This document shows, piece after piece, positions 36,422 to 64,000 of a stretch of DNA of 64,000 nucleotides (position 1 is the stretch's first letter; every line of letters begins with the position of its first letter). The notes beneath the pieces were generated by a model that saw nothing but the letters and a program-made list of their open reading frames with translations, was not told the origin of the DNA and made no database searches. The translations under genes were made by a program, and so were the position numbers. Source of the DNA: Nitrospirota bacterium (GTDB lineage: Bacteria; Nitrospirota; Thermodesulfovibrionia; Thermodesulfovibrionales; UBA6898); the NCBI GenBank assembly GCA_021811105.1, contig JAJZPM010000006.1, forward strand, positions 1 through 64,000, given 5' to 3'.

Positions 36422-39403
36422 CTACAGACGTTCCAGGAGGGCAACGGGCGAAGTGGAAAAAACCTCCGCCAGATAAAACCCGGCGGTCCCTTCCCCCCCA
36501 ACGATAAGCTCTTCTTCCGTAAAGATATTGCGATACCGCGCACCCTTATCAGTCTCAGGAAGCGTCAAAAAAGAATTTGCCCACACGTCTGAACCGAGGG
36601 GCAGGGAATCAGGTGGACCGCAGATTTCCGTCAGAAATCTCGGTACAATCACGACCGCCATATTTTCGTCGAGCCGCCTGCCGAATGCACAGGTGTTCTT
36701 TGCCTTTGTCCCCGAGACATCGAGGGGAACATATTCGCCCTCCCCGAAAAGTCGGCTGTTCTTCTTCCTGTAATGCAGGGCCTTATAGGCAAGGTAGAGC
36801 TTGATCCTGCCGTCTTCCTTCGAGCGGATGAGCTCCGTCATAAGATGCAGAGGACCGATGCGCAACTCCCATTCCTCCAGATCACGGAGCATTTGCATCC
36901 TGAGAGGATAATCAACGGGCCTCCTGTTGTCCGGGTCGACAAGGCTGAATTCCCATAGCTCCGTGCCCTGAAAGAAGTCCGGGACCCCTGGCGAAGCGAT
37001 CTTAAGGAGCGCTTGTGAAAGGGAGTTGAACATCCCGCAGTGAGAGACCCTCTCTTGGAACTGAAGGAAGTCCCTGAGGAAAGAGTTTTCAGGACGGGGG
37101 TCCGTAATCCTCCGGACAAATTCCCTTACGCCCTCCTCATAGGCCACGTTCGGACTCGTCCAGCTCGAATTGATTTTGGCCTCTCTAAGCGCCTTGAGCA
37201 TGTATTCCTCGATCCTTGAGATGTATTCCGCGAGTTCTTTCCTGCCTATCTCCCCCGGGGGCCACGTCCCTGCAAGGGTCTGGTAGAGGAGATATTCCTC
37301 GTTTCTGTCAGGGGCCGGCTGACCCTCTACGAGAGGTTTCTTTCTCCTGTTTCCCCGGGCCCATACCGTAATCCCGCGCCTCCATTCGCCCGGTATCTCC
37401 GAGATGACGTTCATCCTCGCCCTCACATCTTCGCCCCTTTTAGTATCGTGGGTCGATGAGGCGATGAGGGTATGAGGCCAGTATTTTATCCTCTCGATAT
37501 TCTGGCCGTGGAACGCATCGAGAGAGGCACCGAACCTCTCGGGGCTTCCTCCCACCTCGTTGAGCGAGACAAACCGGTTGAAGGAGTAAAATGCGGTATC
37601 CTCAACGCCCTTGGCCATGACTGGACCGGTGATCTGCTGGAACCGCATGGTGAAATCGAGCCACGCCTCTTTCTCCTCTTCGCCAATCCCCTGCGGATAA
37701 TTGAGGAGGAGGACGTCCATCAGGAAATCGAATATTGAGGGGCTGATTGCCGGATTTCTCTTCTTCGCCTTCGAGACCGCCTGTTCTATATACCGCCGGT
37801 CCCTGTCGTCGATGCCTGAACGGCTGCTGTACGCCCGATAAACCGGAAAAAAGGCTATCGTGTCGATGACCGTCGTGGTAAGACTGTTCAGGGTAAAATC
37901 TCTGGTCAGCCTGTTCCTCTCAGAGATGCTGTCCAGAATATGGCCGAGAGTATTGATCTCGCCCGCCATGGCCACTTTCATGATCAGCCTCTTCTTCTCA
38001 TAAACGCGCTCCTGGAAATCCGTTGTCATCCCCGTGAATTTCTTGTAGAGGACGTCGAACTTCTTAGCGTTGTCCATGTCGATAAATATGCCGTTAAGCG
38101 TATTCAGGAAGGTATATCCCGTTGTGCCGTGAACAGGCCAATCCGCCGGGAGCCTCTCGCCCTTCATGAGGATCTTCTCGGCCACGAGATAGAAGGGCAA
38201 GGGATCAGCGGCCGGCACGGTCCCTCCCACGGCTTTGTCCGAATCGGCGTCTCCGTCGCTTCCGGGGTACCGGGAGGGGGCATCAGCGGCATCACGCGCA
38301 TCATGGCCCGACTCGATAAGGCATCCGCGCTGAAGATCGCGGAGGTATTCGGATGGGTTGTAAAGCCCGTCAGCGTGATCGATCCGCAGGCCGGTGATCT
38401 TCCCTTCCCTGATCAGTCTGAAGACGAGCCGATGGGTCTCTTCAAAGACTTCCGGTCTCTCCACGCGCAACGCAGCCAGCTCATTGATATCGAAGAACCT
38501 CCTGTAATTGATTTCGTCAATGGCGACACGCCAGTCTGAAAGACGGTACACCTGCTCCGAAAGGAGGCCGTCAAGCAGATCAAAGCTTTCGGGCTGCCCC
38601 CTGACACCGTTAAAGAGGCTTATGTTTTCGTCGATGAAACGACTTATCGGGAGACTCTTTTTCTTAAGGCTCGCAAGCCTTTTTTTCGATATTTCCTTTT
38701 CCCTGTGGCGTTCGTCAACCTGCTCTTTCTCCCTCTCTGTGTAATGGGGCAGATGGGAAAGGGCGGTCATGATGCTCCTCAACTCGACTAAATCCGGGGC
38801 TTCGTCGCCCAGAGACTCCCGAAGGGTATCGATGCGATGCCCCAAAACCGCCTGGTATGTCTCGGGCCTTATGGGGAAGCGGTGTTCGTGGTAGTCTATG
38901 AAAAAACCGGCATCCTCAAGGGTGAGGACAAGCTCTCCGTTTTCGAGGACCCTCCCGTACTGATCTCCGAGGATCGGCAGCAACACCTTGTCCTTCAGTT
39001 CCTTTTTTTCGGGGACCCAGTTGATGTCGAAAAAGTCGGCGTAGGCCGAGCTCGGACCGTTTTCGAGGATATCCATCCACCATCTGTTTTCCGGACTCGC
39101 GATGCACATATGGTTCGGGACAACGTCAAGGATATGCCCCATATCATACGCGGCGAGCTCCGAGGACAAGGCAAGAAAATCCTTCTCGGTCCCGATCTCG
39201 GGGTTGAGCTGATTTTGATCGACAATGTCATATCCGTGGGTGCTTCCTTTTTTTGCCTTGAAATAGGGGGATGCGTAGATGTCGGTAATGCCGAGTTCGT
39301 GAAGATAAGCCACGATCTTCTTTGCATCGCGGAACCTGAAGGACCCGTTAAACTGGAGCCTGTACGTTGAGACGGGTATCCGGCAGGAGGCCTCTTCTTT
39401 CAC
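36422..39403 (-). CDS. treY: Maltooligosyltrehalose synthase
   Basis: A 993-residue GH13 enzyme that isomerises the reducing end of an alpha-1,4-glucan to a trehalosyl unit. CRIPVSTYRLQFNGSFRF is the typical N-terminus; catalytic-region motifs are ILDVVPNHM, GLRIDHADGLYNP (nucleophile Asp), the LVAEKIL Glu strand and ASSTHDTKRGEDVR. The GTG start at 39403 overlaps the treZ stop (GTGA), so it is coupled; the frame stays open further upstream inside treZ but that is antiparallel-frame noise. It is the last gene of the trehalose operon. Confidence 0.95.
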   Translation of the reverse strand: MKEEASCRIPVSTYRLQFNGSFRFRDAKKIVAYLHELGITDIYASPYFKAKKGSTHGYDIVDQNQLNPEIGTEKDFLALSSELAAYDMGHILDVVPNHMCIASPENRWWMDILENGPSSAYADFFDINWVPEKKELKDKVLLPILGDQYGRVLENGELVLTLEDAGFFIDYHEHRFPIRPETYQAVLGHRIDTLRESLGDEAPDLVELRSIMTALSHLPHYTEREKEQVDERHREKEISKKRLASLKKKSLPISRFIDENISLFNGVRGQPESFDLLDGLLSEQVYRLSDWRVAIDEINYRRFFDINELAALRVERPEVFEETHRLVFRLIREGKITGLRIDHADGLYNPSEYLRDLQRGCLIESGHDARDAADAPSRYPGSDGDADSDKAVGGTVPAADPLPFYLVAEKILMKGERLPADWPVHGTTGYTFLNTLNGIFIDMDNAKKFDVLYKKFTGMTTDFQERVYEKKRLIMKVAMAGEINTLGHILDSISERNRLTRDFTLNSLTTTVIDTIAFFPVYRAYSSRSGIDDRDRRYIEQAVSKAKKRNPAISPSIFDFLMDVLLLNYPQGIGEEEKEAWLDFTMRFQQITGPVMAKGVEDTAFYSFNRFVSLNEVGGSPERFGASLDAFHGQNIERIKYWPHTLIASSTHDTKRGEDVRARMNVISEIPGEWRRGITVWARGNRRKKPLVEGQPAPDRNEEYLLYQTLAGTWPPGEIGRKELAEYISRIEEYMLKALREAKINSSWTSPNVAYEEGVREFVRRITDPRPENSFLRDFLQFQERVSHCGMFNSLSQALLKIASPGVPDFFQGTELWEFSLVDPDNRRPVDYPLRMQMLRDLEEWELRIGPLHLMTELIRSKEDGRIKLYLAYKALHYRKKNSRLFGEGEYVPLDVSGTKAKNTCAFGRRLDENMAVVIVPRFLTEICGPPDSLPLGSDVWANSFLTLPETDKGARYRNIFTEEELIVGGEGTAGFYLAEVFSTSPVALLERL

Positions 39404-41301
39404 GAGGGTGTCTCCCCTAAAGCGGCCTTCCTGTAAACGACGAAACTGTGCGGGTTCATCGCCACCGAGACCCCCTCCCCCTCTGCGGTGATAACCTCCC
39501 GGGCGACACTTCCCGGCCCTTCCCAACCGCTCGAAGACGAATCTATCAACAATCTCCATGGACCTTGCCCGACCGGAACCGGTATTGTCGGACGCCCGCC
39601 GGAAAAGTTGAATAGACAAAAGACCTCGTCGGCATCAAACCATCTCCTGACGAAGAGAAGGAATTCCATAGGGGACATTACCTCCATCTCCTGCTTAGAT
39701 AAATTGAAGAGGGAAGGCAGACCCCTCCTCAGCGCCACCACTTTTTTGTAGAATTCGAAGAGCGCCTTGTGGGTCCCCTTGCCGAGGAGTCCGATATCTG
39801 TCTTCGAGCGCAAAAACGTCTCTTCCGACTGCGGGTCGGGGGGCTCGCCTTCCCATGCAAAAGATGCGAATTCCAGCTGCCTTCCCTTCCTCACCGCCTC
39901 GATGAGGGCCTTTTCGCTGTGGCTTACGAAATAGAGGAAGGGGGCTCTTTCACCGTATTCCTCTCCCATGAAGAGAAGGGGGATGAAAGGTGACAGGATC
40001 ACGACTCCGGCTGCCAGCTTGAGCTTCTCAAAAGGCAGGATGCTGCTCAGCCTGTCTCCCTTCACCCTGTTTCCGACCTGGTCGTGGTTCTGGGAGAAGA
40101 CCACGAATCCATGGGCCGGGACCTTTTCAGAGGAGTTTCCGTGACTCCTCTTTCTGTAGGTCGAATACCTGCCGTCATAAACGAACCCCTCTCTCATCGC
40201 CTTCTCCATGTCTTCCGTCATGCCGAAATCTTCATAATAGCCTGTCTTTTCCCCTGTCAGGAGAACGTGGAGGGAGTGGTGGAAGTCCTCATTCCATTGG
40301 CAGTCCAGTCCATATCCCCCGGTTTCGGGAGGGTTGACCGTCCTTGAGTCGTTGAGGTCGCTCTCGGCGATGATATAGATATATCTGGCCGTTTCCTTCG
40401 CATATGTGTGGACCGCCTCAGTCAACTCAAGCAGAAAGGGTTTTGCGCTGAAGTCGTAAATCCCGTGGACCGCATCTATCCGGAGGGCGTCTATGCGAAA
40501 TTCCGATATCCAGTAGAGGGCGTTTTCCGTGAAGAACCTCCTCACCTCGTCACTGTGAGGCCCGTCGAAATTGACCGCATCTCCCCAGGGAGTTCTGTAC
40601 CGGTCGGTGAAATAGGGCCCGAAGGTGCTCAGGTAGTTGCCCTCCGGGCCGAGGTGGTTATAGACAACGTCTAGAATAACGGCGAGCCCCCGTCTATGAC
40701 ATTCTCTGATCAGCATCTTGAGTCCGCCGGGGCCGCCGTAGGAATTCTGCGGGGCAAAGGGATAGACACCGTCGTATCCCCAGTTCCGGCTGCCGGGAAA
40801 CTGGGAAACCGGCATGAGTTCCACTGCGGTAACCCCCAATTCGCAGAGATGATCGAGGCAGGGGATGACCGCCTCGAAGGTCCCGCCCTGTGTAAAGGCG
40901 CCGACGTGCAGTTCATAGATGATGAAATCGTTGAGGGGAAGTCCCCTCCACCGACCATCATCCCATGTAAATGCCTGAGGGTCCACGATAGCTGAGGGAC
41001 CGTGCACGCCTTCCGGCTGGAATCTCGACGCAGGGTCCGGCCTCATGCGCCCTTCCCCGAGGTCGTAAAGATAATGTGCGCCGGGGAAAACACCATCGAC
41101 CAAGGCATGCCAATATCCCTTCGGTCCCTTCTCCATCGGCATCATGCATTCCGCGGCCGCAAAGACCTTGATGGACACTCCCTTGCAAAGAGGCGCCCAG
41201 ACAAGAAACTCACACTTCCCGCCTCCCAGATACGTCGGGCCTATGCGGGCAGCCTCCGGGACCGGGCTCAAAGTGCCGTCGCCGCACCTCCCCGCGCTCA
41301 T
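39400..41301 (-). CDS. treZ: Malto-oligosyltrehalose trehalohydrolase
   Basis: A 633-residue GH13 enzyme that releases trehalose from the TreY product. N-terminal carbohydrate-binding Ig-like domain (GGGKCEFLVWAPLCKGVSIKVF), then the barrel: ELHVGAFTQGGTF, LDVVYNHLGPEGNYL, FRIDALRIDAVHGI with the nucleophile Asp, IIAESDLND with the acid Glu, and SQNHDQVGNRVKGDRL. The ATG at 41301 overlaps the treT stop as ATGA. Normal length. Confidence 0.96.
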   Translation of the reverse strand: MSAGRCGDGTLSPVPEAARIGPTYLGGGKCEFLVWAPLCKGVSIKVFAAAECMMPMEKGPKGYWHALVDGVFPGAHYLYDLGEGRMRPDPASRFQPEGVHGPSAIVDPQAFTWDDGRWRGLPLNDFIIYELHVGAFTQGGTFEAVIPCLDHLCELGVTAVELMPVSQFPGSRNWGYDGVYPFAPQNSYGGPGGLKMLIRECHRRGLAVILDVVYNHLGPEGNYLSTFGPYFTDRYRTPWGDAVNFDGPHSDEVRRFFTENALYWISEFRIDALRIDAVHGIYDFSAKPFLLELTEAVHTYAKETARYIYIIAESDLNDSRTVNPPETGGYGLDCQWNEDFHHSLHVLLTGEKTGYYEDFGMTEDMEKAMREGFVYDGRYSTYRKRSHGNSSEKVPAHGFVVFSQNHDQVGNRVKGDRLSSILPFEKLKLAAGVVILSPFIPLLFMGEEYGERAPFLYFVSHSEKALIEAVRKGRQLEFASFAWEGEPPDPQSEETFLRSKTDIGLLGKGTHKALFEFYKKVVALRRGLPSLFNLSKQEMEVMSPMEFLLFVRRWFDADEVFCLFNFSGGRPTIPVPVGQGPWRLLIDSSSSGWEGPGSVAREVITAEGEGVSVAMNPHSFVVYRKAALGETPS

Positions 41302-42509
41302 AACTCTATCACATCTTTTCCCCTGTTTTCGATGCAGTACCATGCCGAGAGATAATCTCTTGTGTGGCGCGTGATGAGGAAGTTCTGCCTCACAAACTCC
41401 CTTGCGTCGGTCCCCATCTTTGTCGCCATCTCAGGGTTGTTGAGCAACTGCCTGACCCTGAAGGCCGCGCCGTCAACAGAATGGACGAGGAAGCCGGTGA
41501 CCCCGTGCAGTATCTGAAGCGGAATGCCTCCGGTTGCGCCCCCGATCACCGCCTTGCCCTTCCACATCGCCTCCGAGACGGTCAGACCGAAGCCCTCCCT
41601 GACGGATTTCTGGAGGATGACCGTTGCCAGGCGCTGGAGCGCATTGATATCCGTATCACTGAACGGGGGAAGCAGGAGGATGCGGATATCGGGGTCATCG
41701 GCGGCATAATCCCTCACCTCCTGTAAAACGATCGCGCCTTCGGGGTCATCGGTCGCAGGGCTTCCCGCAAGGACCAGGACGCAGTCATTGTACTTCCTGA
41801 CGGCCCTGTATGCCTTTATCACACCGACAGGGTCCTTGAAACGGTCAAAACGTGAGACCTGCAGCAGGATCGGCCTTTCCTTCTCCAACCCGAACCTATC
41901 ACGGACAGCCTGGATCTCCTCGGCCGAAAGCTCCCTGTTCTTCTCTGCCAGAGGATCGATTGAAGGGGGGATGATAAACTCCTCAGTTCCCATGGCCCGT
42001 GAAAACTTCGCAACTGAAAAAACAGAGGCATCGTATTTCCGGCTGTACGTTGTGAGCATGTCGCATACATCCCTGCAAGGCGCTGACAGGTCGATGTGGC
42101 ATCTCCAGAGCCAGATTCCGCCCTTCCTGAATTCTATGAGGGGGGCCGGCTGGGGATCGTGTATCAGCACGGCGTCCGCGTCGAGGTCCAGCCTTTCGGC
42201 ATTTCTCCTGTTCACCTCAAAATAATATCGCCACATCTCCTCGTCGATCTTCTCCGTATTGCCCTGGAGCGTGTTATGCAGCTTCTTCGTGATTTCGAAA
42301 AACCGTTCGTCTCCCTCGATTACCTCCCACCGGGCTTCAATGCCGACCCCTTTCAAAATAGGGATCATCCTGTGCAGGATCTCGGCGACACCTCCGCCCG
42401 CACGGGTCGAGTTGACGTGGAGAAAGGTCTTTCCTTTAAGTCTTTCACCCAGCTTCCGGAGAAGGATCAGGTCCCTGGCAGGGGCTATTCCGGCGTATCG
42501 TGAGATCAT
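41298..42509 (-). CDS. treT: Trehalose glycosyltransferring synthase (TreT-like, GT4)
   Basis: A 403-residue GT4 glycosyltransferase related to TreT, which makes trehalose from NDP-glucose and glucose. KTFLHVNSTRAGGGVAEILHRMIP is the acceptor-side glycine loop; WRCHIDLSAP and LLQVSRFDRFKDPVGVIKAY carry the donor-binding Arg and Lys; the E-x7-E motif lies in VREGFGLTVSEAMWKGKAVIGG. The ATG at 42509 overlaps the preceding stop (ATGA). With TreYZ it gives the cell two routes to trehalose, one from free sugar and one from glucan. Confidence 0.9.
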   Translation of the reverse strand: MISRYAGIAPARDLILLRKLGERLKGKTFLHVNSTRAGGGVAEILHRMIPILKGVGIEARWEVIEGDERFFEITKKLHNTLQGNTEKIDEEMWRYYFEVNRRNAERLDLDADAVLIHDPQPAPLIEFRKGGIWLWRCHIDLSAPCRDVCDMLTTYSRKYDASVFSVAKFSRAMGTEEFIIPPSIDPLAEKNRELSAEEIQAVRDRFGLEKERPILLQVSRFDRFKDPVGVIKAYRAVRKYNDCVLVLAGSPATDDPEGAIVLQEVRDYAADDPDIRILLLPPFSDTDINALQRLATVILQKSVREGFGLTVSEAMWKGKAVIGGATGGIPLQILHGVTGFLVHSVDGAAFRVRQLLNNPEMATKMGTDAREFVRQNFLITRHTRDYLSAWYCIENRGKDVIEL

Positions 42510-43177
42510 CCTCCCCCCCCGGTCATTTCCATGTCCCTTCGCACTTCGGCTTCGACTGCACCGGCGATGTAGCGCCTTATCCACTCCAGATCGTGCATAA
42601 AGGGATCAATCGCCCGTACCGCCTCCGCCAGTGCAGGCTTGCCGATCACCCTTTCGAACCAGGCCGAGAAGTCGTCTGTCCCGAGCCTGACCCTCGCGTC
42701 GTAGAAGTGATAATAGACGGCGTTCACATCGATGAAGCGTATCGCTATCAGAAACTCGGCGAGATTTTCAGCCCGTATGCCCGCAGGGTAGATTATGGTC
42801 ACCGTTTCGTTGAAATAGAACTCATCCCCTGCCATCGCCTCCCGGGGATCGGGAAAACGCTCGAGATAGCCGCCGATTATGTCAAGCAGTCTCTTCCTCA
42901 CTTCTTCAGTATCCCTGAATTCATACGGGTCGATGTTCGAGAGCTCTTCCGCGAGCGCCCTTTCTTCAAGCCCCTCCCCCGCCCACTGCGCGAAATCGTT
43001 GGTATATTCCAGAAAGCGTTCCCTCATGAAATACTGATACGTGTGATGGAAGATGGATCCTGCACTCACCACGGCGACGATATCCCTCAACTCCCTGATG
43101 TTGCGCGCCTTCTTACCCGTGGCCTTGAGGATTCCGATGCATTCCTTGAACTCGAAGGGTTCCGATATTTTCTCCAT
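42506..43177 (-). CDS. DUF5752-family protein
   Basis: A 223-residue soluble helical protein matching the DUF5752 type: FEFKECIGILKATGKKARNIRELRD, SIFHHTYQYFMRERFLE..YTNDFAQWA, then a second similar half (YYHFYDARVRLGTDDFSAWF). The two halves share the pattern H-x-Y-x-F/Y...NDFA/DDFSxW, suggesting an internal duplication. It leads the trehalose operon and overlaps treT, so a role in trehalose metabolism is likely; the activity is unknown. Confidence 0.85.
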   Translation of the reverse strand: MEKISEPFEFKECIGILKATGKKARNIRELRDIVAVVSAGSIFHHTYQYFMRERFLEYTNDFAQWAGEGLEERALAEELSNIDPYEFRDTEEVRKRLLDIIGGYLERFPDPREAMAGDEFYFNETVTIIYPAGIRAENLAEFLIAIRFIDVNAVYYHFYDARVRLGTDDFSAWFERVIGKPALAEAVRAIDPFMHDLEWIRRYIAGAVEAEVRRDMEMTGGGG

Positions 43178-56836: not shown

Positions 56837-59800
56837 ATGGAAAAAGAAACAATCAGTACTGAAAGCGGCGTCGTACTGTCTGTCGAAAAACAGGCCGATG
56901 ATGTCCGCGCGGAATTGGATATCAGCAGCAACGCTGCTGTGCCGTGCCTCCTTCACTGGGGACTCCGTCGGCGCGGAGACCCTTCCTGGCAGGCGCCTCC
57001 TCCTGATTCCTGGCCGGAAGGAAGCCGCGCATTTGACGAAAAGGCGATCCAATCCCCCTTTCTCAGGCAGGACGGCCAGGGCCGGATAACAATCAGACTC
57101 GGGAAATCATCGGATTTCCGGTCGATCGACTTCGTCCTCTTTTTCCCGGACGAAAACCGCTGGGACAACAACAGGGGAAAAAATTACCGGATCGAAATCC
57201 CGGGACGGCCGTCACCCTATGAGCCGGCACTCGGCGACCGCGCAGTCGCGGAGATCGCCGAGGAAATCATAGAGCATGAGACCTCCGGGAATTCCTGGAC
57301 ACTGATGCACCGGTTCAATCTCTGCTACGACCTGTTGGACAAGGCAAAAGATACGGAAGAAGGCCTTGCCCTTGTCTTCGTCTGGCTCCGCTACTCTTTT
57401 ATCAGGCAGCTGGATTGGCAGCGGAATTACAATACGAAACCAAGGGAACTCGGCCATGCCATGGACCGCCTCACCCTTAAACTTGCCGGCATCTACGGGG
57501 AGCTTCCCGAAAGAAGGGAACTGGTGCGCCTCATCATGACCACCCTCGGCAGGGGCAGCGACGCCCAGAGGGTGCGAGACGAAGTGCTGAATATAATGCA
57601 CCGTCACCACATAAAGGAGGTTTCGGGCCGCTTCATGGAAGAGTGGCACCAGAAGCTTCACAATAATGCAACGCCGGACGATATCGTCATCTGCGAGGCA
57701 TACCTCGAATTTCTAAGGAGCAACGGCAACCTCGAAAGGTTCTATAAAACACTCAATGACGGCGGCGTTACGAAGGAAAGGCTTGAAGGCTATGAACGGC
57801 CGATACGTTCTCATCCGGATTTCATTCCGCATCTGAAGGACGCCCTCATAGGGGACTTCGAGCATTTCCTTGGCATCCTGAAGGCTGTCCATGCCGGCAC
57901 GGACCTCGGAAGCGCCATACATGCGGCACGCTACCTCTTCGACAGCGACATGCACCAGCTCATGGATTTCATATGGTATCATCACGACGACTGGAAGATG
58001 CCCGCGGTCCAGCTCTCCGAAAAAACCACCGAGGCCCGCCGACGTATCGCAAGGTTGCTGTCGGGGCATCAGGACAGGATACGGGACCTGCTCTTCCTTG
58101 ATATTGCGCTCGCGGATTTCCTGAGGATCGTCACAGAGAAGAATCTCGGCCCTGATCAGGGTCCCAATGAATTGGTGGACCTCGCTGCATCGATGCTCGA
58201 AACCCTCTGCCTGTCCGGCCAGGGAGAAGAACTGGACTATGTCAGGAAAGATTGGGAACGGCTCGGGAAGAAGCCGCGATTCGACAGGGAATGGTCCCTG
58301 CATGCAAAGGCGGTTTCCGATCGCATGGCCGCCGTTGTCGGGGAGTCTGTAGACAGGCTGAACAGACTGCTCCAGCCGAAGGCGAAATTCCTCGGCAAGG
58401 CATTTCATGCCCAGACGTGGGCCGTAGAACTGTTCAGTGAAGAAGTCGTACGCGGCCTGCCGGTCTTCGCCTTGTCGCTTGTCCTGAGATACCTGGATCC
58501 CCTGCTGAGGAAGAGCGCACATATGGGGAACTGGCAGCTAATAAGCCCCGGTGAAGGGACCGCTGAAATAGCGGTGACGGAGACATTGAAGTCTGTTCAG
58601 GGCAGAAGTTTTTCACACCCGGTCCTGATCGTCACTGATAAGGTCTCGGGCGACGAAGAGATCCCCGGCGGAGTTGTCGCCATCATCACCCCTGCGGTCA
58701 TCGACATACTCGCGCATCTTGCGGTCCGTGCGAGGAATGCAGGCGTCCTTTTTGCGACCTGCTACGACACGGGACTTATCGGCAATTTGAAATCGCTTCT
58801 GGGCCACACGGTAAAGATAGGCATACGCAGCGGCGATGTGGTATTCGAGGAGAGCAGCAGCCTCGTTGAGACGACTGCTGAGAGGCACGCCCCCCTCCGA
58901 CATGCCGCATCGCGTCCTTCTTTCACTTCCTATGCGCTTACGATGGAGGAATTCAACGAAGATAATGTCGGCGGAAAATCGAACCACCTGAAGCAGCTGA
59001 GGGGAAAACTTCCCGACTGGATCGGCCTTCCGGCGTCAGCGGCGATCCCCTTCGGTGTCTTCGAAAAAGTACTGACTGATAAAGCAAACTCCGAAGCTGC
59101 AACGCAGTACAGTCGCCTTCTGGCAGAGGTTGAAAAAGGGGGCGAGAACAAAGTGGAACTTCTCCAGGCGCTCCGCGAGAATATACTGAAGCTTGCGGCG
59201 CCTGATGAGCTCGTTGCCTCCCTGCGTGTTGTCATGGAAAAATCCGGGCTCCGGTGGCCGGAGAATTGGGAAGACGCCTGGACCTGCATCCGGAAGGTCT
59301 GGGCCTCAAAATGGAACGAGAGGGCCTATCTCAGCCGCAAGGCAAACAACATATCCCATGACGACCTTTTTATGGCTGTGCTGATCCAGTCCATTGTCGC
59401 GGCAGATTATAGTTACGTGATCCACACCGTCAACCCCTCCACCGGAGCAAGCGAAGAGATTTACGCCGAGGCTGTGAAGGGACTCGGGGAGGCGCTCGTC
59501 GGCAATTATCCGGGCAAGGCCTACAGCTTCACCTGCCGGAAGGGGCAACCACAACCCCGGCTGCTTTCCTTTCCGAGCAAACGAGAAGGACTTTTCGGGA
59601 CGGGCATGATCTTCAGGTCCGACTCCAACGGCGAAGACCTGGCCGGATTCGCAGGTGCCGGACTTTACGACAGCTTCATCTTCCCGAAGCCCCGCAGGAT
59701 CACCCTCGATTACAGCGCCGACCCGCTTATCTGGGACGACTCATTCAGAAATAATTTTTCTGTCGCGATCGCCGAGATTGGTGAACTTGTCGAAGGGGCG

Positions 59801-59884
59801 CTGGGACCGCCGCAGGATATCGAGGGCGCATACTCGAAAGGTAATTTTTTCGTGGTCCAGTCACGGCCCCAGGTGGGCGTCTGA
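56837..59884 (+). CDS. Alpha-glucan, water dikinase homologue (plant GWD1-like)
   Basis: A 1015-residue dikinase. Residues 1-125 form a CBM45-like beta domain (CLLHWGLRRRGDPSWQAPP). Residues 140-460 match the plant GWD middle: NYNTKPRELGHAMDRLT, then IMTTLGRG, MEEWHQKLHNNATPDDIVIC, KTLNDGGVTKERLEGYERPI, LKAVHAGTDLGSAI. The phosphohistidine domain has the catalytic His627 in DILAHLAVRARN, then LFATCYD. The C-terminal ATP-binding domain has KVWASKWNERAYLSRK, ADYSYVIHTVNPS and FRSDSNGEDLAGFAGAGLYDS. GWD transfers the beta-phosphate of ATP to glucose units of starch. The next gene follows directly (TGA-ATG). Glycogen or a related polymer is the likely substrate; this is inference. Confidence 0.9.
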   Translation: MEKETISTESGVVLSVEKQADDVRAELDISSNAAVPCLLHWGLRRRGDPSWQAPPPDSWPEGSRAFDEKAIQSPFLRQDGQGRITIRLGKSSDFRSIDFVLFFPDENRWDNNRGKNYRIEIPGRPSPYEPALGDRAVAEIAEEIIEHETSGNSWTLMHRFNLCYDLLDKAKDTEEGLALVFVWLRYSFIRQLDWQRNYNTKPRELGHAMDRLTLKLAGIYGELPERRELVRLIMTTLGRGSDAQRVRDEVLNIMHRHHIKEVSGRFMEEWHQKLHNNATPDDIVICEAYLEFLRSNGNLERFYKTLNDGGVTKERLEGYERPIRSHPDFIPHLKDALIGDFEHFLGILKAVHAGTDLGSAIHAARYLFDSDMHQLMDFIWYHHDDWKMPAVQLSEKTTEARRRIARLLSGHQDRIRDLLFLDIALADFLRIVTEKNLGPDQGPNELVDLAASMLETLCLSGQGEELDYVRKDWERLGKKPRFDREWSLHAKAVSDRMAAVVGESVDRLNRLLQPKAKFLGKAFHAQTWAVELFSEEVVRGLPVFALSLVLRYLDPLLRKSAHMGNWQLISPGEGTAEIAVTETLKSVQGRSFSHPVLIVTDKVSGDEEIPGGVVAIITPAVIDILAHLAVRARNAGVLFATCYDTGLIGNLKSLLGHTVKIGIRSGDVVFEESSSLVETTAERHAPLRHAASRPSFTSYALTMEEFNEDNVGGKSNHLKQLRGKLPDWIGLPASAAIPFGVFEKVLTDKANSEAATQYSRLLAEVEKGGENKVELLQALRENILKLAAPDELVASLRVVMEKSGLRWPENWEDAWTCIRKVWASKWNERAYLSRKANNISHDDLFMAVLIQSIVAADYSYVIHTVNPSTGASEEIYAEAVKGLGEALVGNYPGKAYSFTCRKGQPQPRLLSFPSKREGLFGTGMIFRSDSNGEDLAGFAGAGLYDSFIFPKPRRITLDYSADPLIWDDSFRNNFSVAIAEIGELVEGALGPPQDIEGAYSKGNFFVVQSRPQVGV

Positions 59885-62800
59885 ATGCCCGACAGGCCCC
59901 GCATCCGGATAGGCAATCAGACCGCCTTTTCCGCAGAAAGAGTGACCCTTCCCTTCGAGTTCGCTGTCGACCACGGCTTCGACGCCTTCGAATGGTTCCC
60001 TGACAAGAAGGAAACAGGAGAGGGCTGGACGGTTCGGGACATTCCGGCTGAAGTCCGCTCATCGATTAGGGCAACTGTGGAGGCCCGCGATATTCGTCTT
60101 TCGGTCCATGCGCCCTGGCCGTCTGACCCTTTAAGCGGGGATGCCGCCCAGTCTTTCAATGATGCGATCGATTTCGCAAAGCAGATCGGCGCATCTCTCT
60201 TTATTGTCCATCTCAGGACGGACCTTGGGATCGGGGCTTATGCCGAGGCGCTCCGGCCTTTCATGCAACTTCTCAGGGAGGCGGGGATCGGTCTTGCAAT
60301 AGAAAATACTGTCTTAACTTCGCCCAAGGACATGACAGCTATTTCCCGGCATCTGAGCGGATTCGGCGAAGATACGGCATCTCACGTAGGAATATGTCTT
60401 GACCTGGGCCACGCAAACCTCTTCCGCGAAACCCGCAACGACTACCTCAGGTTCTTCGACATGCTCGGCCCGGAAGTCCCCATAGTTCATGTCCACATGC
60501 ATGAAAACTACGGGGACCAGGACAATCATCTCACGATCTTCACCGGGCCGGCGGGGAAAGACGCCTCCGGCATCAGGGCATTTGTCGAGCGACTGAAGAA
60601 AAGAAATTTCTCCGGCTCCATCATCCTGGAACAGTGGCCGAGTCCCGAAGGCCTGCTCGTCGAAGCCCGCAACCGTCTGATCGAAATACTTGGCACAAGG
60701 CCGGAGCACCAGCAGGCAAAGAGCAGCGCACCGGAGGAGGAAGATAACGTCACCAAGTTTGTGGAGGCAAACAGACGTTTACTCAGTTGGAGAAAACGCC
60801 TCGAATGGGTACTGCGCTTGCTGACGGATACTACAGAGGGGCCCGGCCCCGAACTCCTGACGTATATAGCCGTCTATCTGCGCTTCTTAGGCACAGGGGA
60901 GGTACGTTGCAGCGAAGACGGCGGCCACTACCGTCCCTCGCGTCATGCTAATATCTCAGGACATATCTATGAGAGACTCGTCACCCTTGCCACTGCCGAC
61001 AACCGGTTCGTAGTGAGGAAGATATATCCCTGGCTCCCCTCTTTCGACAGCGAGTTCAGGCGTTCGGAGCCGCTCACGCTCATCAGGGATATAGCCCACC
61101 GGAACGATATCCCCCGGGAGCTGAAGCAGGAGATCAAGACAACACTCCAGAACAAGCTGCACCGCTCGGCAGGGCCTGAGGACCTCGCCGTCTCCTCGGC
61201 GCTACTGGAAAGGATCACGGCACCGGGCGCTTCCTATCCGCAGTCATTTGTCGCGGAATTCAGGCGATTTCACGAGGAGCTGAAGGATTTTTTCAACGCC
61301 GGCTCGCTTAAGGAACTGCTCCTCCGGATCATCGAAAAAGATGAATTCGGGGACGTTCCGCTACTTCATGAATTTATCGCCATCCTCGACCGTCAAGGGA
61401 AAGACCGCGACGCGCTGAAGGCGCTTGAACTTCTCACAAACATCCGTGCCCGCCTCGTGCCGCAAACTCTCACTGACAGCGGCGCGACAGGCCTCCGGCT
61501 GCAGATCGCAGATATCAGGCTCGAAGACCATTCATTCGTTCTTCTCAGCCTTATCACAAATGCTGTCGAAGGCCGCATCGCCCGGGAGAAGATGCCATGG
61601 AAAACAGCGCTTCGTGCTTCCGTGCTTGCGGTGGCAAACATTCGCTTCGGCGGATTCGACCCCGAAGAATGTGCGGCAATAGAAGCGGAGACGGAGTCGG
61701 TGTCTTCTGTGTTCGATCACCGCAGGCGGGATAGTCTCCTCAGGCTGAAGGCTTCGGCCGACAGGTGCCTGAGACTTGCCGAATCATATAGAGACAAGAT
61801 CCTTGCACTTTTTCCGGAAAAAGCGAAGATGCTTGGACGGGCACTCGGTGTCGCAGAACATGCGATCAGTGTCTATGCGGACGCTGATATCAGAAGCCAT
61901 CCGGTTTTTCAACTTTCCAAGCTGGCCTCACTTCTCCTGAAGGAGATCAGGGAAGCGGCGTCGCTTCCCTTCTGTGACGTTATCGTGCCGGGGGCTGCCG
62001 GTGGAAGACTTCTGACCGGCCCTTCCCTTTTGTCTCTGCCGGTCACGCAGGACGGACCGGCCGTTGTGCTCACGGAGCGGGCAGCGGGAGACGAGGAGAT
62101 ACCCCCTTATGTCACCGGCATTATCGTCACCGTCGAAACTCCACTACTTTCCCATCTCGCCGTGCGCGCCCGCCAAAACGGCACTGTTTTTATATTCTGC
62201 GGGGATTCGAAGCGGATCGAAGAAATAAAGACATTTTCGGGGAAACCGATCTCGATCGCTACAGCCGGCGGGAATTTCCGGGTCTCCTCTGCCGAATTCA
62301 GCAGCAGCGGGGAGTCCGGCAGACTATGCTTAAGGACAGCCGGACTGATCGCGCCGCCGATAGAGTATCCGGGAGAGGCGCTGATCGCTCTGGACCTCAT
62401 AAGCACTTCGGCGGGAGGCGGGAAGGCGTATGGCGCCCGCAGACTCGGGGAGATCGCTGAGACGGAGAGTGCGGGATTCAGGGTGCCCGGGGGCCTCGTG
62501 GTCCCCTTCGGCGTTATGGAAGCATCGCTTCGTTCCAATTCCGCCCTGGCTGAGGAATATGCATCGCTGACCGCAGAAATCGATCGCCCGGCGCTGTCTG
62601 CGCAGAACGTCTGCCTCAGGAGGCTGAGGGAGATCATCATGCAGCTTATGCCGCCCGGCGAAGTGCTCTCCGGGGTGGCCCGGCATTTTGCGAAAGACAG
62701 CATGCTGATGGTACGTTCCAGTTCCAACTGCGAAGATGCCGAAGGCATGGCCGGGGCGGGTATCTACGATTCTGTTGCGAACGTGCCGTTGTCCGAAACC

Positions 62801-63364
62801 ACCGTAGCAATACCCAGGGTCTGGGCGTCACTCTGGAACAGGCGTGCGCTTGATGCCAGAAGGAATGCGGGCATCGCGCATGAAGCTTGCCGCATGGCGG
62901 TACTCATCCAGCCCGTGATCCCGGCAGACATTTCCTTTGTCATGCACACCGTCAATCCTGTCAGCGGGAACGAAGATGAAATACTCATAGAGTTAGCAGT
63001 AGGACTGGGAGAAACACTTGTATCGGGCCGCGAACCCGGATCTCCTTTTCGCATGATATACCATAAGAAGACCGGGGACCTGGAGATTCTCTCTTTTGCA
63101 AGCTATAGCTTCCGGTTGCGGCCGACCGGCCGCGGAGGAACTGTCAGGGAGAGAGTCGATTACTCGGCAATACCTTTTTCCCGTGACGAGGATTTCAGGC
63201 GGAAATTAGCTATGCACATAGGAGAATCCGGCGGTCTGGTGGAGCGTGCTTTAGGCAAGCCCCAGGACATAGAAGGGGTCGTCAAAGGCGAAGAGATTTA
63301 CCTCGTTCAGGCACGGCCCCAGCAAACAGGCCGACAGACAGGGAGGAAGGAATGTCCGACATAG
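59885..63364 (+). CDS. Fusion: xylose-isomerase-like TIM barrel + phosphoglucan-water-dikinase-like protein
   Basis: A 1159-residue two-part protein. Residues 1-275 are a sugar-isomerase/AP-endonuclease-2 type TIM barrel with its metal-site strands: SVHAPWPSDP, GLAIENTVL (Glu), ICLDLGHANL (Asp, His), VHVHMHENYGDQDNH (His), SIILEQWP (Glu). The rest resembles dikinases: a helical middle, a phosphohistidine domain with catalytic His757 in PLLSHLAVRARQNG, and a C-terminal ATP-binding domain (MLMVRSSSNCEDAEGMAGAGIYDS, VWASLWNRRALDARRN, ISFVMHTVNPVSGNEDEI). It begins right after the GWD stop. It may be a second-step dikinase, as PWD follows GWD in plants; the barrel role is unknown. Confidence 0.85.
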   Translation: MPDRPRIRIGNQTAFSAERVTLPFEFAVDHGFDAFEWFPDKKETGEGWTVRDIPAEVRSSIRATVEARDIRLSVHAPWPSDPLSGDAAQSFNDAIDFAKQIGASLFIVHLRTDLGIGAYAEALRPFMQLLREAGIGLAIENTVLTSPKDMTAISRHLSGFGEDTASHVGICLDLGHANLFRETRNDYLRFFDMLGPEVPIVHVHMHENYGDQDNHLTIFTGPAGKDASGIRAFVERLKKRNFSGSIILEQWPSPEGLLVEARNRLIEILGTRPEHQQAKSSAPEEEDNVTKFVEANRRLLSWRKRLEWVLRLLTDTTEGPGPELLTYIAVYLRFLGTGEVRCSEDGGHYRPSRHANISGHIYERLVTLATADNRFVVRKIYPWLPSFDSEFRRSEPLTLIRDIAHRNDIPRELKQEIKTTLQNKLHRSAGPEDLAVSSALLERITAPGASYPQSFVAEFRRFHEELKDFFNAGSLKELLLRIIEKDEFGDVPLLHEFIAILDRQGKDRDALKALELLTNIRARLVPQTLTDSGATGLRLQIADIRLEDHSFVLLSLITNAVEGRIAREKMPWKTALRASVLAVANIRFGGFDPEECAAIEAETESVSSVFDHRRRDSLLRLKASADRCLRLAESYRDKILALFPEKAKMLGRALGVAEHAISVYADADIRSHPVFQLSKLASLLLKEIREAASLPFCDVIVPGAAGGRLLTGPSLLSLPVTQDGPAVVLTERAAGDEEIPPYVTGIIVTVETPLLSHLAVRARQNGTVFIFCGDSKRIEEIKTFSGKPISIATAGGNFRVSSAEFSSSGESGRLCLRTAGLIAPPIEYPGEALIALDLISTSAGGGKAYGARRLGEIAETESAGFRVPGGLVVPFGVMEASLRSNSALAEEYASLTAEIDRPALSAQNVCLRRLREIIMQLMPPGEVLSGVARHFAKDSMLMVRSSSNCEDAEGMAGAGIYDSVANVPLSETTVAIPRVWASLWNRRALDARRNAGIAHEACRMAVLIQPVIPADISFVMHTVNPVSGNEDEILIELAVGLGETLVSGREPGSPFRMIYHKKTGDLEILSFASYSFRLRPTGRGGTVRERVDYSAIPFSRDEDFRRKLAMHIGESGGLVERALGKPQDIEGVVKGEEIYLVQARPQQTGRQTGRKECPT

Positions 63365-64000
63365 AGAGATGTCCCAGGATTATGGCGTTGTTCCAAAAAA
63401 GGATAGACGGCGATGACGCGCTTCTCAGGCTGGCCAGTCTCCGCTTCAGGGAGGCCCGTCTCGGCGCGGAGTATTACGCCGAATCCCCCGACGAACTCGA
63501 GTGGCTTCTCGGCTTCAGGCCCTTTCATGATGCCCCCGTTGCCGTCCACCTGCACCGGGATCTCAATATCAGCGAGGAATGGGGCAGACGGCTTATCTTC
63601 GATTTTGCCGGCCGCTTCAAGGGAAGGATTTACGGCATTGTCGTCCACGACCGGCCTGAGACTGCGTCGCGGTTCGATGAGTATCTTGCAGCGGTGAGGG
63701 ATACCGCCTCCCGCCTGGGGCAGATCGAAGGGTGTCCCGGTCTTTTTATCGAATATGCCGCAGGGATCGATCCCGAGATTTTTGTCCTCCTTTTCAGGTC
63801 GGTCGCCGACCTCGACAAAGTGAGTGCGTGCGTCGACATCGGGCATATAGGCATCCGGCAGGCGAGGGTCCTTTTTTCGAAGAAATACCCTGATAAGGAC
63901 ATCTGCAGCCTGAGGCCTGACAGTCCCGAACTTCCCTCCCTGATTGGAGACGTCGAAGGCGTCGTCCGCTCGGGACGGGAGAAAGTGCTTCAGGTTATAA
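63352..64000 (+). CDS. Sugar-isomerase-like protein, partial (runs off the window)
   Basis: A frame open from ATG 63352 (AGGGAGGAAGG ribosome site) to the window end, 216 codons so far, overlapping the end of the fusion gene by 13 bases. Segments GLFIEYAAGIDPEIF, KVSACVDIGHIGIRQARVLF and early AVHLHRDLNI resemble the E and D-x-G-H metal strands of the xylose-isomerase-like barrel. It seems to be a stand-alone relative of the barrel fused to the dikinase upstream. The 3' end is not in the window. Confidence 0.75.
   Translation, partial: MSDIERCPRIMALFQKRIDGDDALLRLASLRFREARLGAEYYAESPDELEWLLGFRPFHDAPVAVHLHRDLNISEEWGRRLIFDFAGRFKGRIYGIVVHDRPETASRFDEYLAAVRDTASRLGQIEGCPGLFIEYAAGIDPEIFVLLFRSVADLDKVSACVDIGHIGIRQARVLFSKKYPDKDICSLRPDSPELPSLIGDVEGVVRSGREKVLQVI

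Follow-up and report, generated by a model that had tools for sequence, protein, structure and literature searches.

Within a 64,000-nucleotide stretch of a Nitrospirota contig (JAJZPM010000006.1; the window), we identified three consecutive genes that, judged from their sequences, would form an operon to phosphorylate and break down a stored alpha-glucan (starch or glycogen). New here are a bacterial pair of dikinases, resembling plant GWD and PWD, in one operon; separate partnerships of one barrel protein (BAR1) with GWD and of another (BAR2) with the second dikinase (DIK); and the rarity of glucan phosphatases of the plant type in GWD genomes. The gene joining BAR1 to DIK represents one arrangement within a broader system that recurs.

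In plants, according to the excerpted text of PMC12892837, GWD phosphorylates C6 and PWD then phosphorylates C3 after GWD, and the phosphatases SEX4 (mainly C6) and LSF2 (C3) strip phosphate before amylases act; starch phosphorylation by GWD and PWD is treated in that text as plant matter. The mechanism of glycogen phosphorylation is called unknown in the excerpted text of PMC13011383. A search of an incomplete open-access PMC collection turned up no description of a GWD system in bacteria; comma spellings (glucan, water dikinase) may escape a phrase search.

The three genes lie on the + strand in the order GWD (P0002), BAR1:DIK (P0001), and BAR2:GH13 (P0003), with BAR denoting a barrel and DIK the second dikinase. 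Their features are as follows.

56837..59884, +: GWD, alpha-glucan water dikinase homologue, 1015 aa (Pfam; profile versus 9ha9)
56843-57199, +: GWD Ig-like N-terminal domain (Pfam Ig_N_CWD1, 5.3e-22)
58529-58858, +: GWD phosphohistidine domain, with His627 at 58715-58717 (Pfam GWD1_pHisD, 5.7e-32)
59885..63364, +: BAR1:DIK, 1159 aa, barrel joined to second dikinase (single ORF)
59885..60697, +: BAR1, xylose-isomerase/endonuclease-IV-like TIM barrel, residues 1-271 (Pfam, AF2, fold search)
60107..60631, +: BAR1 metal-ligand residues H75, H109, E140, D173, H176, H204, D213, H215, and E249 (conserved in 69/69)
60698..60739, +: linker between barrel and dikinase, residues 272-285 (pLDDT < 50)
60737..61960, +: DIK all-helical region, residues 285-692 (DSSP of model; profile A4)
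61976..62293, +: DIK phosphohistidine domain, residues 698-803, with catalytic His757 at 62153-62155 (Pfam)
62417..63343, +: DIK ATP-grasp domain, residues 845-1153, normal motif order (Pfam PPDK_N; fold match)
63352..64000, +: BAR2:GH13, 5' part of a protein of 782 aa in all that runs on to contig base 65700 (ORF, Pfam)

The start codon of BAR1:DIK abuts the GWD stop (TGAATG), and BAR2:GH13 overlaps BAR1:DIK by 13 bases. The initial annotation had described a barrel fused to a dikinase with a joint near 60740. The ORF at 59885-63364 is open throughout, with no interruption; the linker at 60698-60739 is that joint, and it shows no frameshift or assembly joint. Because the genome is a 93-contig draft, we considered whether the fusion could be an assembly or frameshift artefact or a decayed gene, and we reject this reading as having negligible probability: the in-frame fusion recurs in 32 of 79 loci of other assemblies (from the best 80 of 100 confirmed stretches), and the catalytic residues of both halves are conserved in 25 full-length fusion copies. 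The same count removes the impression that no other dikinase carries such an N-terminal domain. The next gene, first taken for a free barrel, encodes the BAR2:GH13 fusion of 782 aa, whose 3' part lies beyond the end of the window.

Elsewhere, this genome also carries GT5 and glycogen phosphorylase. About 14 kb upstream of the operon, at 36422-42584 (-), are a TreT-like glycosyltransferase and two GH13 proteins that, from the look of their sequences, we take to be TreZ-like and TreY-like. These trehalose genes could draw on the same glucan as the dikinase operon.

GWD has the Pfam domain PPDK_N besides Ig_N_CWD1 and GWD1_pHisD, with a helical region between. A profile of 23 orthologues, in all of which His627 is invariant, matches the plant GWD structure 9ha9 (E = 1.7e-127). 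The dikinase half of BAR1:DIK has matches to GWD1_pHisD at residues 698-803 (1.4e-19) and PPDK_N at residues 845-1153 (6.2e-42), its ATP-grasp domain has a fold match in rifampin phosphotransferase (5hv3; Z = 33.7), and His757 is invariant in the 25 full-length copies. Profile A4 matches 9ha9 at residues 508-692 (E = 2.5e-10), by which the DIK helical region appears to be related to that of GWD. Over the dikinase part, BAR1:DIK and GWD are homologous (BLAST 31% over 562 columns, E = 7e-64).

The two dikinases differ in the order of their ATP-grasp motifs: R-S-x-S-N-x-E-D precedes the VWAS, HTVNP, and GLGE motifs in BAR1:DIK and follows them in GWD, and because it stands after them we regard the GWD domain as permuted, relative to both DIK and PEP synthase. 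Plant GWD1 has the permuted order and plant PWD the normal one. We therefore call DIK PWD-like on its normal motif order. A Pfam scan of BAR1:DIK found no CBM, with the barrel at the N-terminus instead. Separately, the GWDs of four other loci (L079 6384-9857, L117 6436-9906, L128 6063-9989, and L098 1206-4793) have N-terminal extensions of 150-280 aa. Pfam finds two stretches of Ig-like domain in all four of these proteins, and the L079 extension weakly resembles a CBM25 starch-binding module.

Structure prediction bears out the TIM barrel proposed for residues 1-275. The AF2 model of this segment, built with 69 sequences (pLDDT 93.2, pTM 0.91), has eight strands alternating with helices in a (beta/alpha)8 arrangement, and residues 24-260 match Pfam AP_endonuc_2 (PF01261; E = 2.7e-24, 86.7 bits versus a cut-off of 31.1). 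The model of full-length BAR1:DIK, built with 25 full-length fusions (pLDDT 87.0), has four domains and a weak linker at residues 272-285 (pLDDT < 50). The closest solved relative of BAR1 is MJ1311 (3wqo; Z = 24.8, 3.0 Å over 243 residues), an uncharacterised protein titled epimerase-like. Two AP endonuclease entries come next (Z = 24.1-24.5), and sugar 3-epimerases and E. coli endonuclease IV also match (Z about 22-23). With scores within about 3 Z units, the fold search fails to separate hydrolase from epimerase.

All nine metal ligands of BAR1 are identical in 69 of 69 sequences (set A3, comprising the window barrel and 68 of the 79 loci), among which relatives are 45-91% identical to the window barrel. 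We take these nine positions to be the zinc ligands of endonuclease IV. Eight of the nine fall in identical columns when BAR1 is compared with the genome's own endonuclease IV (L001), and the ninth, E249, is one column off E263 of L001, at the end of strand 8. The Glu, Asp, His, His, and Glu that the initial annotation considered intact fit E140, D173, H176, H204, and E249, and H75, H109, D213, and H215 complete the endonuclease IV set. As a set, the ligands are those of endonuclease IV and CbiR, though the fold search ranks hydrolases and isomerases or epimerases alike. Invariance of H202, H204, H206, E207, N208, E249, Q250, and W251 is partly by construction in loci found by pattern search, in which the patterns included HxHxHEN and EQW stretches; 21 sequences from a BLAST-type search carry the same residues. 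Read from sequence, the nine-ligand set favours phosphoester hydrolysis over isomerisation for BAR1.

We rejected endonuclease IV and CbiR themselves as identities for BAR1 on the NCBIfam models: TIGR00587 (nfo) has no match to the window barrel at E 0.01, and the closest NCBIfam model, CbiR (NF041277), scores 45.9 bits versus a cut-off of 105. The true Nfo of this genome is the separate L001 (TIGR00587, 242.6 bits). Another barrel in the same genome (L002, on G000 contig C33) is CbiR-like and also below the CbiR cut-off (76.1 versus 105 bits). A plasmid collection searched with the barrel gave no match. Searched with full-length BAR1:DIK it gave 117 records, none with 80% coverage, and the plasmid records among the matches listed (ten) align only with the ATP-grasp end.

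In P0003, BAR2 occupies about residues 1-340 and a GH13 amylase about residues 350-782 (Pfam hDGE_amylase, 1.6e-21; Alpha-amylase, 2.2e-10). D179, E208, H262, and D263, which we take to be GH13 catalytic residues, are invariant in 24 members of the family. A His/Asp/Glu set is invariant in 19 BAR2 sequences, 3 of which have weak matches to AP_endonuc_2 (best E = 0.0092), and a barrel fold is probable. The similarity of this barrel to BAR1 suggested earlier is real but distant: hhalign gives a probability of 95% (E = 1.9e-8, 115 columns), and BLAST gives no significant alignment between the two. We therefore discarded the idea that BAR2 is a close copy of BAR1, since the kinship is at profile level only. 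One further locus (L045 1-1689, genome G077) has the end of BAR1 and a GH13 amylase in one 563-aa frame starting at the contig start, a possible BAR1:GH13 fusion.

A genome scan provided the 79 named loci, with labels that include Nitrospirota, Desulfobacterota groups, Planctomycetota, Verrucomicrobiota, Nitrospinota, Omnitrophota, and Pseudomonadota; most of these genomes are metagenome-assembled, and the taxonomic labels may err. In this set (best 80 of 100), BAR1 is in frame with the dikinase in 32 loci and free in 47. BAR1 has GWD upstream in 52 of the 79 (24 fused, 28 free), within 150 bases in 45 of those 52, and downstream in 1; the remaining 26 have no GWD in the stretch fetched, partly from contig ends. 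From the same best 80 of 100, BAR2 is present in 20 of 32 fused loci versus 0 of 47 free ones, and GH13 in 29 of 79. BAR2 was not found in the stretches fetched for four full-length fusion loci (L071, L090, L102, and L119), and the G001 contig ends within its fusion gene. Neighbouring families, named from one scanned representative per cluster, include GT5 glycogen/starch synthase (19 of 79 loci, best 80 of 100), GH57 branching enzyme (13 of 79), and DUF4912 (8 loci and a second cluster of 3), which may have a glucan-related role. At L066, L067, L069, L074, L081, L082, and L083, the cluster is followed by a DUF4912 protein, a GH57 branching enzyme, and often a GT5 synthase.

Fusion and fission of BAR1 and DIK recur. 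Bootstrap trees of the 69 barrels imply 14-16 changes of the fused state, and supported branches force at least 6 changes. BAR1 and DIK are separate neighbours at L116, L132, and L134. In 4 of the 79 loci (L063, L064, L065, and L084), BAR1 is followed by the helical region, and a stop corresponding to residue 694-710 ends the frame ahead of the phosphohistidine domain or close to its beginning; in the L063 and L084 genomes, the single phosphohistidine match is GWD, and there is no other dikinase of this type. Since BAR1 is retained by itself, with just the helical region, or ahead of a complete dikinase, it is more than a targeting part of the dikinase.

Of 395 genomes sampled from the window's phylum, 39 have GWD above the cut-off and 33 have BAR1; all 33 belong to the 39, so that BAR1 occurs in 33 of 39 GWD genomes versus 0 of 356 without GWD (Fisher 2e-42, a value that ignores kinship between genomes). 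In a second phylum (395 genomes drawn around G404), both GWD and BAR1 were found in the same 4, G404 being included by choice. BAR1 is coupled to GWD, in an obligate-looking partnership in the two sampled phyla. The GWD genomes without BAR1 number 6 of 39 (G052, G061, G088, G096, G336, and G400). In G052, G061, G088, and G096, a GWD gene adjoins GH13 and the search turned up no barrel; G061 carries two dikinases of the GWD type.

BAR2, in turn, is coupled to DIK: it occurs in 9 of 12 genomes classed as DIK-bearing versus none of the other 27 GWD genomes. This classification places G061, G395, and G400 without DIK on the basis of G061 alone (second dikinase 48% GWD-like), and counting all three as DIK-bearing gives 9 of 15 versus 0 of 24. 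The single-contig genome G332 separates the two pairs, with GWD, free BAR1, and GH13 at 35.3-41.2 kb and, about 2 Mb away at 2.11 Mb, a 905-aa DIK without a barrel followed by BAR2. From this split we therefore assign BAR1 to GWD and BAR2 to DIK. The main partner of BAR1 is the GWD of the preceding gene and not the dikinase to which it is fused, given that 47 of 79 loci (best 80 of 100) carry it as a free protein and that it tracks GWD in two phyla. Of the 39 GWD genomes, only 4 have a DSP-type phosphatase (PF00782) over the cut-off and 13 have some DSPc-like match; a search for PF00782 found none in BAR1:DIK and none in this genome.

We propose that GWD (56837-59884) would phosphorylate the stored glucan, that the DIK half of BAR1:DIK would act as a second, PWD-like dikinase, and that the GH13 joined to BAR2 would cut the chains. 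A phosphorylated glucan is probably the substrate common to the operon, in support of the shared substrate suggested by the initial annotation. BAR1 would be a catalytic metalloenzyme of the endonuclease IV/CbiR kind and the functional partner of GWD, hydrolysing a phosphoester on the phosphorylated glucan as a phosphoglucan phosphatase with the job of SEX4. BAR2 would do likewise for the DIK product, as LSF2 does for C3 phosphate. That both barrels use metal to hydrolyse phosphoesters, each on what its own dikinase produces, by analogy with SEX4 and LSF2, is in our view plausible, stopping short of probable, and it is the most economical reading because of the endonuclease IV/CbiR ligand set. 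The GWD-BAR1-GH13 module comprises a writer and an amylase with BAR1 at the place expected of a phosphatase, and DIK-BAR2 repeats the arrangement of writer plus barrel. The ancestral order may have been GWD, BAR1, DIK, BAR2, GH13, with fusion joining the second and third neighbours.

BAR1 could instead be a non-catalytic phosphoglucan-binding module that replaces the GWD-type Ig-like domain, whose sequence position it holds, and steers DIK to glucan already phosphorylated by GWD; plant PWD requires prephosphorylated glucan, according to the excerpted text of PMC12892837. We consider such a role rather unlikely, as the nine metal ligands are invariant in 69 of 69 sequences (H204 and E249 lie within the search patterns), BAR1 is free in 47 of 79 loci (best 80 of 100), and the DIK of G332 has no barrel. 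The ligands also bear on an isomerase or epimerase role for BAR1, in which its substrate would be a phosphorylated sugar, or the phosphorylated end of an oligosaccharide, freed by amylase from phosphoglucan. D-tagatose and D-psicose 3-epimerases and UlaE are among its fold neighbours (Z about 22-23), and E140, D173, H204, and E249 match what we take to be the ligands of those enzymes. However, H75, H109, D213, and H215, the additional ligands of the multi-metal endonuclease IV kind, show no variation either, and in-chain glucosyl units cannot be isomerised, which makes this role quite improbable.

A metal-dependent hydrolase or transferase with another target, either a glucan phosphodiester or a metabolite signalling glucan phosphorylation, has little probability in our judgment, as the neighbours are glucan enzymes and we know of no diester in a storage glucan. 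What speaks for it is that CbiR is the nearest named model and that CbiR and endonuclease IV are phosphodiesterases (excerpted text of PMC7733943). Several points also weigh against a phosphoglucan phosphatase role for the barrels: BAR1 and its close relatives have no known reaction, epimerases score nearly as high as endonuclease IV, a phosphatase joined to a dikinase could risk a futile cycle, and among the 39 GWD genomes 6 are without BAR1 and 13 have a DSPc-like match.

If the barrels do hydrolyse glucan phosphoesters, the whole could be a complete bacterial phosphoglucan cycle spanning several phyla, in which GWD and BAR1 would serve one phosphate position and the PWD-like DIK and BAR2 the other. 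The erasers would then be a new TIM-barrel class of metal-dependent phosphatases, with no kinship to the cysteine-dependent phosphatases that plants and animals have, and in the window the eraser of the first module would be fused to the writer of the second. We hold this full picture to be speculative and, taken as a whole, doubtful.

An operon with both kinds of dikinase and conserved metalloenzymes offers small, testable proteins for the question of glycogen phosphorylation, and it suggests that phosphate marking of storage glucans is older or more mobile than plants. Barrels that proved to take phosphate off would constitute a new class of phosphoglucan phosphatase, with applications in processing starch. 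Failing that, the barrel family, found exclusively with GWD in the two phyla sampled, is still a well-delimited partner that can be given a name.

Compared with known systems, the operon GWD shares with plant GWD1 the Ig-like N-terminal, helical, phosphohistidine, and ATP-grasp domains; unlike plant GWD1, it is bacterial and shares its operon with a barrel and an amylase, and its dikinase activity, which would be transfer of the beta-phosphate of ATP to glucan C6, is predicted. DIK, like plant PWD/GWD3, is a second dikinase beside GWD with a phosphohistidine domain followed by an ATP-grasp domain in normal order, a likeness drawn from domain and motif order. The N-terminal starch-binding module of plant PWD is CBM20, whereas DIK has a metal-site TIM barrel at its N-terminus and no CBM. 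With CbiR, a cobamide phosphodiesterase of the AP endonuclease 2 superfamily, BAR1 has in common the His/Asp/Glu pattern of L002, but it scores 45.9 bits versus 105 and sits among glucan genes. Endonuclease IV (Nfo) shares the fold of BAR1 (Z about 22) and the nine metal ligands, but BAR1 has no nfo match at E 0.01 in a genome with its own separate Nfo (L001). SEX4, LSF2, and laforin would have in common with BAR1 the proposed job of removing phosphate from phosphoglucan; they are cysteine-dependent enzymes of the DSP fold, and BAR1 would be an unrelated metalloenzyme.
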